Below are positions 2,803 to 8,041 of a stretch of DNA of 10,574 nt, in pieces. How positions within the stretch are numbered: the stretch's first letter is position 1; each line of letters begins with the position of its first letter. Source of the stretch: Patescibacteria group bacterium (GTDB lineage: Bacteria; Patescibacteriota; Saccharimonadia; Saccharimonadales; HK-STAS-PATE-42); the NCBI GenBank assembly GCA_030917805.1, contig JAUPUA010000018.1, forward strand, positions 1 through 10,574. The letters run 5' to 3'. The notes below the pieces were generated by a model that was not told where the DNA came from, did not search any database, and saw nothing but the letters and a program-made list of their open reading frames with translations. A program made the translations under genes and the position numbers.

Positions 2803-5800
2803 ATGACACCATCACATTACGACGACACAAGTACAGTACTATCAGATTTTGATGAGATCAAACTAACCGTTGCGTCTCCAGCTAGAATCCTAGATCTTTC
2901 GCACGGTCACGTTACTAAATCAGAAACCATCAACTATAGAACACAAAAAGCAGAAAAAGACGGACTCTTCTGTGAGAAAATTTTTGGACCATCTAAGAAC
3001 ATCTCTGCACACGACACTCGCTTTAAGGGAGTAAGAGCTCGAGACATGGCTGTTGATAAAAAGGGAAGATTGGTCACAAACTCTAACGCTAGGCGTGAAA
3101 GAATGGGACACATCGAACTGGAGGTACCTGCCGTACACACCTGGTTCCTGCGTTCTAACCCAAGCGCCATTAGCCATCTTCTTGGCATGAGCACAAAAAG
3201 TTTAGAGCGCGTTATTTATTTTTCCGCCTACATGATTAATGAAGTAGATGCGGGTAAACTAGATGCACTTTATGTAGATCTCGAAGCTGCAGTTGATACA
3301 GAAAAGAAGGCCATCGAAGCACGTTATGAAGAGCTGAATGAAGCCGAAGGAGCAGATCTAAAGGATCTTGCTAAAACCAGAAGCAAAGAGATCGATGCAG
3401 TAAATGAAGCCTTCTTAACTAGGAAAGCACAGCTGGATAGCCTAAAAGAAGCAGCCCTAATAACGGAGTCCGACTTTGGTCAGCTACCGCAAGAATATAA
3501 GGATGTTGCTAAAGTAAGTATGGGTGCTGAAGCAATTTATGGCGCACTAAAAGAGCTTAATCTTGCTGAGCTAATCGAACAGATACGAACAGAAGTAGAA
3601 GAGGCTCAAGGTCAACGTTATAAAAAGCTAATTAAGCGTTTAAAGATTCTAGAAGGGATCCATAAGGCTGGAATCGACCCAAGCTGGATGTGCTTAACAG
3701 TTCTGCCAGTTATTCCACCAGAACTACGCCCAATGGTCTCGCTTTCAGGTGGTCGTTTTGCAACTTCAGATCTAAACGATCTTTACCGTCGTGTCATTAA
3801 CCGTAACAACCGTCTAAAAAAACTTACTGCGCTTGGTGCGCCTGAGCTTATTAAGCGTAATGAAAAGAGAATGCTTCAAGAGGCAGTCGATGCTCTAATT
3901 GATAATGCAGGCCGTGGATCACGTGCTGTTACTGCAACTGGAGGTCGCCGTAAGCTTAAGTCTCTAACGGACGTTCTAAAAGGAAAACAAGGACGTCTTC
4001 GTGGAAACCTTCTTGGTAAGCGTGTCGATTATTCCGGTCGTAGTGTTATTGTTTCAGGTCCAGAGCTAGAGATAGACGAGTGTGGATTACCTCGTTCAAT
4101 GGCGCTTGAGCTATTTAAAGCTCACGTTATTGGATGGCTGATAGAACACGAGTATGCTCAGAACATTAAGGGTGCTAATCGCTTGATTGAACTCAGAGAT
4201 ACAATCATTTGGGATGCACTTGATTCTGTCATGGAAGGGAAGTACGTTCTTTTGAACCGTGCTCCAACCTTGCATCGTCTTTCCGTTCTTGCTTTCAAGC
4301 CTAAACTAAACGATGGGCGTGCAATCCAGTTACACCCATTAGTTTGTGCAGGTTTCAACGCTGACTTTGATGGGGACCAAATGGCAGTTCACCTTCCACT
4401 TTCTGATGAGGCCCAAAAAGAAGCCCGTGAGATAATGGCAGCCAATCTTAACCTTCTGAAGCCAGCTGATGGATCTCCAATTCTTAACCTTTCACAGGAC
4501 ATCGTCTTAGGTTGTTACTTCTTAACTTACATTCGACCGGAATTTGAAGAAGATAAGAACTACAAAGCTCCAATAGTTGCTACAATGCAAGAAGCTGAAG
4601 CTGCTTACCAAAAAGGTAATTTAAGCTTGCAACAACCGATAATTACTATTTGTGACGGAAAGAGACTAGATACAACCTACGGACGTCTAATTTTTAACTC
4701 ATCACTTCCTGACAAAATTCCATTCCAGAATAAAGCTATGGATAGTAAGAGTCTAAAATCTGTAATGGCCCTCGCTTTTGAAGAGTTCGAAGCAGCAGGC
4801 GCAGCAAAAGTTGCCAACGAGATTAAACGCCTCGGGTTTGCGTGGGCAACAACATCTGGTCTTTCGACTGGTATGGATGATTACGCTGATGTTAAGAACC
4901 TACCAACTTTAATCGAAGAAGGTGAAAAGAAGGCTGCAGAAATTGACCAAATGCTTAAAGACGGTCTATTAACTAACGAAGAAAAAAGGAAACAAACCGT
5001 AGAAGCCTGGAAGGCCGTTGACCGTAAGATATCTGCTGCAATTCAAGAACAGTTCAAACGAATTGATTCAAGTATGGAGATGGCAGCCATTTCTGGAGCT
5101 CGTGGATCAATCGGTAACTTTAAGAACGTTACCGGAATGAAGGGTATTGTTGTAGATGCCGTTGGTCGTGAGATCGAACTTCCAATTAAGAATAACTATA
5201 AGACCGGGTTCAACCCAGTGGAATACTTTATCGATAGTTCTGCTGCACGTAAGGGTCTAATCGATACAGCACTTAAAACTGCCGATGCTGGTTACCTAAC
5301 TCGTCGTATGGTAGATATTGCACAAGATATCTTTACTGTTGAGGGCGAATCAGAGGATTCTGGATTTACAATCTATCGTAAAGAAGCTGATGACATCGGA
5401 ATAACCTTTGCCTCTCGTTTAGAGGGTAGATTCCTGGCAGCAGCAGTCAAGTTCGGAGACCTAAAGCTCAAGGCTGGTGATTTCATCACTAAAGAGCTTG
5501 CCACAAAGATTGATAATGCAGAAGAGGTGACTGAAGTAACAATTAAGAGTGTAATCACCTGCTCTAATTTAAGAGGAGTAACAATTGAATCTTACGGAAC
5601 AGATCTTGGTTCAGGAAAGCTAATTGAGCCATACCAAGCCGTAGGTGTAATTGCTGCACAATCTTTAGGTGAAAACACAACTCAGCTAACACTTAATACA
5701 AAGCACCAGGCTGGTTCTGCAACAGAAACCGACGTAACCAAAGGTCTTCCTCGTGTAGATGAGCTCCTCGAAGCCCGAGTTCCAAAAGGTAAGGCTACTA

Positions 5801-7699: not shown

Positions 7700-8041
7700 A
7701 TGGTCGAAAGTAGAGCCCCAGATCCAAGGCTAGTGCAGCTTGGTAGACAAGCATTTATAGATCAACAAAGACGTAGAAGTGCTACTAGAGGGATGCAGGG
7801 TATTGTATTGCAATCTCAACTTTTAGAAAGAGCAATATCTGTTCAAGCAAGAAAAAGAGGTGGAATCAGCAGGGAAGCACTAGAACAACACCTAGAGAAA
7901 ATAGGAGAATTTGCTACCGCCTGGAACTGGATACCACCAAACCATCTTTCACCTGAGCGACCAATTCTCGATGCTATGGCCTCATTGGCCTTATTAGAAC
8001 CAAATCCAGCTGATACAACAGGAACAAACACAGCCGCCTAA
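7700..8041 (+). CDS. Hypothetical protein, 113 aa, downstream of rpsG
   Basis: I do not recognise this protein. It begins 15 nt after the rpsG stop on the same strand and is probably part of the rpsL-rpsG transcript, in the slot where fusA often lies. The first two thirds are rich in Arg/Gln and likely helical, with basic clusters QQRRR (residues 23-27) and RKRGG (51-55). A second helical part follows (SREALEQHLEKIGEFATAW), then WIPPNHLSPERP, a short hydrophobic helix (ILDAMASLALL) and a Pro/Thr-rich C-terminus. It has no cysteine, signal peptide or transmembrane segment. The basic helices and ribosomal neighbours make an RNA- or ribosome-associated role conceivable, but that is speculation. 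The ATG at 7700 is weakly supported, with only GATAGAAG upstream. No overlapping alternative frame looks better. Confidence 0.75.
   Translation: MVESRAPDPRLVQLGRQAFIDQQRRRSATRGMQGIVLQSQLLERAISVQARKRGGISREALEQHLEKIGEFATAWNWIPPNHLSPERPILDAMASLALLEPNPADTTGTNTAA

Follow-up and report, generated by a model that had tools for sequence, protein, structure and literature searches.

The window, a stretch of 10,574 nucleotides, carries the end of rpoB followed by rpoC, rpsL and rpsG. The encoded RpoC scores 1308 bits against the NCBIfam profile TIGR02386 (cut-off 963.5), which places it in that family, and its open reading frame contains the catalytic NADFDGD motif (GFNADFDGDQMAVHLPL). rpsG is followed by an ABC exporter, with no elongation factor gene there; positions 7700-8041, downstream of rpsG, hold a 113-residue ORF that has no NCBIfam or Pfam match. 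The genome from which the window derives is 65.6% complete in 93 contigs, and its assembled part contains one match to the RpoC zinc domain. We take the order to be Saccharimonadales, and homologues of this RpoC are labelled, for example, Candidatus Saccharibacteria. One homologue (P0006), 89% identical to the window's RpoC over the searched region, has the source label Candidatus Nomurabacteria, which looks wrong. An insert after residue 147 appeared odd next to E. coli RpoC and was dismissed as a peculiarity of the window, given some insert there in all 66 Patescibacteria rows of our alignment; a search with residues 138-236 alone found no PDB match. One RpoC of the order (L103, genome G300) has 201 residues after its YFASY motif vs 84-94 in most rows of the class. 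A plasmid search added nothing.

Table 1 Features of the rpoC locus in the window, with the basis of each assignment and the residues found at the corresponding alignment columns.
Feature	Position	Strand	Basis
rpoC, RNA polymerase beta' subunit, 1275 aa	2803..6630	+	TIGR02386 profile, Pfam Rpb1 domains
ZBD1 segment, residues 66-96, no Cys	2998..3090	+	gap-free match with solved beta' chains
Ala69 codon, place of E. coli Cys70	3007..3009	+	order rows P 43, A 2, S 1 (n=46); others C 19/19
Asp71 codon, place of E. coli Cys72	3013..3015	+	D in 46/46 order rows; others C 19/19
Val84 codon, place of E. coli Cys85	3052..3054	+	order rows V 41, I 4, R 1 (n=46); others C 19/19
Lys87 codon, place of E. 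coli Cys88	3061..3063	+	order rows N 32, K 9, E 3, R 2 (n=46); others C 19/19
ZBD2 first part, residues 844-853, Ser850 at place of E. coli Cys814	5332..5361	+	Cys in 6/47 order rows, 18/19 others
ZBD2 second part, residues 918-933, Cys920/Thr927/Ser930 at places of E. coli Cys888/895/898	5554..5601	+	alignment rows

The zinc ligands of the N-terminal zinc-binding domain of bacterial beta' (ZBD1) are usually treated as fixed. In E. coli RpoC, taken from NC_000913, the cysteines stand at 70, 72, 85 and 88, and window numbering runs one lower. A preliminary description of this DNA had claimed that all four are lost at unchanged length, and our comparison bears this out: relative to E. coli they are replaced by A69, D71, V84 and K87, and the 31-residue segment between GPSK and RRERMGH aligns without gaps with solved beta' chains, e.g. 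8i23, 7l7b and 6wvj. We looked for displaced cysteines nearby and found none within the GPSK...RRERMG stretch. The domain thus resembles its E. coli counterpart in place, length, GPxK...RRERMGH flanks and basic positions, but it lacks all four cysteines and its knuckles are rebuilt, a state shared by 48/48 RpoCs of the order and 0/110 from other Patescibacteria. The C-x-C ... C-x2-C motif is absent from the window's ZBD1 and occurs in 0/48 in the order, and the distance from GPxK to RRERMGH is 31 residues in all 158 RpoCs read.

The second zinc site of RpoC (ZBD2), which the preliminary description does not mention, is lost as well. We take C814, C888, C895 and C898 of E. coli to be this site; all four are confirmed as cysteines of E. 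coli RpoC in our alignment. The window has S850, C920, T927 and S930 at these places, so that three of the four cysteines are gone. At E. coli 888, 895 and 898, cysteine is found in 22, 0 and 1 of 47 order rows vs 18, 19 and 18 of the 19 other Patescibacteria rows, and the complete four-cysteine site in 0/47 vs 18/19. The sole exception among the 19 (L059, genome G242) combines an intact ZBD1 with a ZBD2 that has one of its four cysteines. Its family mate (L239, genome G046) has both zinc sites, which indicates a separate, ZBD2-only loss in L059.

Across Patescibacteria, the loss of the ZBD1 cysteines marks the window's order (Ca. Saccharibacteria). All 48 order RpoCs lack cysteine in ZBD1 and all 110 from outside carry the four-cysteine motif, which rules out a phylum-wide trait. 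The 48, window included, comprise the RpoCs of 22/22 order genomes in one protein search, 25 readable ones of 30 in another, and one (L135) from a contig scan with variable-stretch patterns that gave this single locus. The 110 comprise 25 that share the window's class but not its order and 85 from other Patescibacteria, the latter hand-picked from matches, mostly one per family, together with genomes that had no DNA-pattern match. Likewise, the best 120 of 7997 RpoC homologue matches are without ZBD1 cysteines (120/120). A homologue named Ca. Mycosynbacter amalyticus (P0060) carries this type of segment too. A DNA pattern for C-x-C-G-K-[YF]-K matched 7 of 392 order genomes, none in the RpoC frame (a reversed control pattern gave 4), and 28 of 32 genomes in the class's other orders, the remaining 4 yielding no RpoC N-terminus. 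Outside the order, 226 of 264 genomes matched, with the location in RpoC checked for part of them. We read 30 of the 38 misses, all of which have the four cysteines in a C-G-K-Y-R variant that lies outside the pattern; the reading left out G011, G057, G077, G108, G204, G213, G253 and G261. Since genomes without an assembled RpoC also score as misses, our claim rests on the direct readings. The comparison beyond Patescibacteria covers E. coli and the three solved beta' chains, so uniqueness among bacteria is outside its reach. Among the titles listed in searches of the open-access literature, none describes such a change, which is weak evidence of novelty because subscription papers fall mostly outside that scope.

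To place the losses in time, we used an RpoC tree of 66 rows (47 from the order, 19 from other Patescibacteria), built by a quick method with the zinc columns excluded. The 47 order rows fall on one side with support 99.9. Mapped onto this tree, as the preliminary description had proposed, the ZBD1 cysteine loss is one change; the ZBD2 loss takes two, of which one falls on L059. The remaining order forms a branch with support 97 that excludes the window's family and L103, and the grouping of this family with L103 has a support of only 7. The loss is therefore older than the order's sampled diversity.

The cysteine-free domain is under purifying selection rather than in decay. Mean pairwise identity within ZBD1 is 0.82 in the order vs 0.83 in the others, with 0.67 vs 0.55 for whole RpoC. 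Ranked by conservation among all 31-residue windows of RpoC, ZBD1 stands at the 77th percentile in the order, lower than its 88th in the others. Over 8 related pairs, pN/pS is 0.043 in ZBD1 vs 0.149 in the remaining RpoC, a rough figure since several pairs come close to saturation at synonymous sites (pS up to 1.06). New letters have become fixed or nearly so in the order rows: I67 in 44/46, P69 in 43/46, D71 in 46/46, G76 in 46/46, E81 in 43/46 and A83 in 46/46, with V or I at 84 in 45/46, followed by D-[KH]-[NKER]-G. Lys or Arg is kept at E. coli positions 74, 76, 79 and 81 (window 73, 75, 78 and 80) in 46, 46, 46 and 45 of 46 rows, whereas E. coli R77 is replaced by Gly in 46/46 and H80 by Ser in 42/46. 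Contacts of the domain may therefore be in part retained and in part altered. With the ligands gone at unchanged length and purifying selection acting on the segment, a kept ZBD1 fold is plausible.

Zinc motifs are missing from other proteins of the lineage as well. S14 is of the long type, which has no C-x2-C pairs, in 10/10 order genomes, 1/4 from other class orders and 0/5 elsewhere in the phylum. L24 lacks the cysteine motif in 14/14 class members (10 from the order, 4 others) and has it in 5/5 phylum genomes. L33 has at most one cysteine in 7/8 order genomes and in five class genomes, and four in 3/3 phylum genomes; the eighth order L33 (L189, genome G314) has three cysteines, the other seven none or one. 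We read L36 for 37 of 75 order matches (the 30 best-scoring and 7 low-scoring ones picked deliberately): 32 are without the zinc motif and 5 have it, the 5 including those of the window's genome (G000:C35, L232) and of its genus mate. A count of L36 changes on the tree is set aside, since row L034 had been given the state of its family mate G024. In a further set, L36 is without the motif in 7/7 order genomes (2 in common with the 37) and has it in 4/4 class and 3/3 phylum genomes in which it was found. A ligase zinc finger occurs in 3/8 order genomes (window's included), 1/5 class and 2/5 phylum genomes, the sequence read being that of the window's genome only. L32 gave a match in 9 of 16 genomes, with the frames of G000 and G314 left out.

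Our picture is one of successive losses of zinc motifs: L24 and L33 would have come first, S14 and both RpoC sites would have followed at the order's base, and L36 later in most of the order. This pattern of losses fits zinc economy in abundant machinery, which we infer to be its reason. Such economy would be incomplete, because the window's genome keeps a zinc-type L36 and the zinc finger of its DNA ligase, and 5 of the 37 L36 proteins keep the motif; zinc has therefore not been purged everywhere. The zinc-type L36 of this genome likewise weakens the idea of a synchronous purge.

That the order's RpoC has lost the cysteines of both zinc sites while its first domain is kept at length under strong selection suggests a polymerase able to do its work with no structural zinc. 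It seems likely to us that the ancestor of the order swapped both structural zinc sites of beta' for metal-free versions, with a remodelled ZBD1 that still folds and works. We hold a little less firmly, but still favour, the wider reading that beta' throughout the order has no structural zinc at either site and relies on metal-free replacements, which would make transcription independent of zinc supply. In the exchange, the first knuckle of ZBD1 passed at constant length from C-x-C-G to (mostly) P-H-D-A, with the Asp invariant. The second went from C-x2-C-G to V-D-K-N-G, which probably makes a tight turn in a beta-hairpin. The residues around them changed too, Trp/Tyr becoming Ile and Val/Ile becoming Ala, while the hairpin body and the basic face toward nucleic acid at the RNA exit were most likely kept. 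ZBD2 has lost its C-x2-C pair, the other two cysteines being kept only in part of the order. These changes fit the view that zinc sites were taken step by step out of the lineage's abundant transcription and translation machinery.

The alternatives each account for part of these data. A changed partner or signal, such as promoter DNA, exit RNA, a factor or the ribosome, might have selected the change in ZBD1 with zinc loss as a by-product. Surface positions did change together with the ligands (R77 and H80, above), and in published work H80 touches RapA (PMC8501970) and L78 and K79 lie at putRNA (PMC9378689). Nevertheless, the four basic positions are almost invariantly kept, and altered contacts leave the loss of ZBD2 and of the ribosomal zinc motifs unexplained, so we regard this account as unlikely. 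Somewhat more doubtful still is erosion, in which ZBD1 became dispensable in a reduced, host-dependent genome and is drifting. The small genomes (0.4-1.6 Mb), the variable ZBD2 columns within the order and a Thermus Rho-dependent release assay that tolerated ZBD1 deletion (PMC9908020) would suit it, but drift is hard to square with a ZBD1 length that is constant in 48/48, a pN/pS under that of the rest of the gene, and new letters that are fixed.

We also considered that a metal is still held in ZBD1 by other ligands, e.g. His70, Asp71, Glu81 and Asp85. Asp71 and Asp85 are invariant (46/46) and Glu or Asp is usual at 81; yet the segment's only His is Asn or Tyr in 4/46 rows and cysteine is absent in 48/48, which makes retained metal very improbable. 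An artefact of sequencing, assembly or genetic code might be suspected from the incomplete and fragmented genome of the window, but the frames are open and stop-free and 48 separate genomes of the order agree, which rules it out for practical purposes. Chance or error is excluded by the contrast between the order, uniformly without cysteines, and the 110/110 RpoCs outside it with all four. The metal-free exchange of both sites remains our preferred reading: the substitutions, their spread, the single origin on the RpoC tree and the conservation are observed, and metal absence, kept fold and kept function are predicted.

In model bacteria ZBD1 sits at the RNA exit, and exit RNA, RapA and Rho contact it. 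There, putRNA bound to ZBD1 lowers swivelling and pausing (PMC9378689), and E. coli ZBD1 wedges RapA open, with further functions listed for upstream DNA, in termination and in coupling to the ribosome (PMC8501970). The spacer contact falls to a neighbouring zipper residue, R47, and a contribution of the zinc domain is cited at a weak -35 element (sigma-32, PMC10216364). Thermus ZBD1 enters the Rho ring, and RNA release was unaffected by its deletion (PMC9908020). The altered promoter recognition or termination suggested in the preliminary description is possible in Saccharibacteria. A large functional effect need not follow, because the Thermus polymerase without ZBD1 still released RNA with Rho. 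If ZBD1 is naturally zinc-free across an order, the metal would be replaceable without giving up the domain, and the compensating substitutions of this version would lie ready for probing what zinc does. The change would also be one of the stages by which the gene-expression machinery of Saccharibacteria has shed zinc sites.

Two known systems invite comparison. Changes in the RNA polymerase of small-genome, host-dependent bacteria are also described for endosymbionts whose genomes are extremely reduced (PMC8321222). Theirs are presented as erosion, the zinc finger appearing in the relevant passages simply as a domain, whereas the Saccharibacteria ZBD1 stays conserved. Another parallel is found in the zinc-free (C-) forms of ribosomal proteins such as S4, L31, L33 and L36, of which S4 is described in C+ and C- forms (PMC3087516). 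In both cases the zinc ligands are replaced in a gene-expression protein that is otherwise unchanged, and the zinc form of ZBD1 is replaced throughout the order, making it an analogue of the C- proteins in another family rather than a member. The C- ribosomal forms have several origins and were also transferred, whereas the change described here has one origin on the tree and lies in RNA polymerase.
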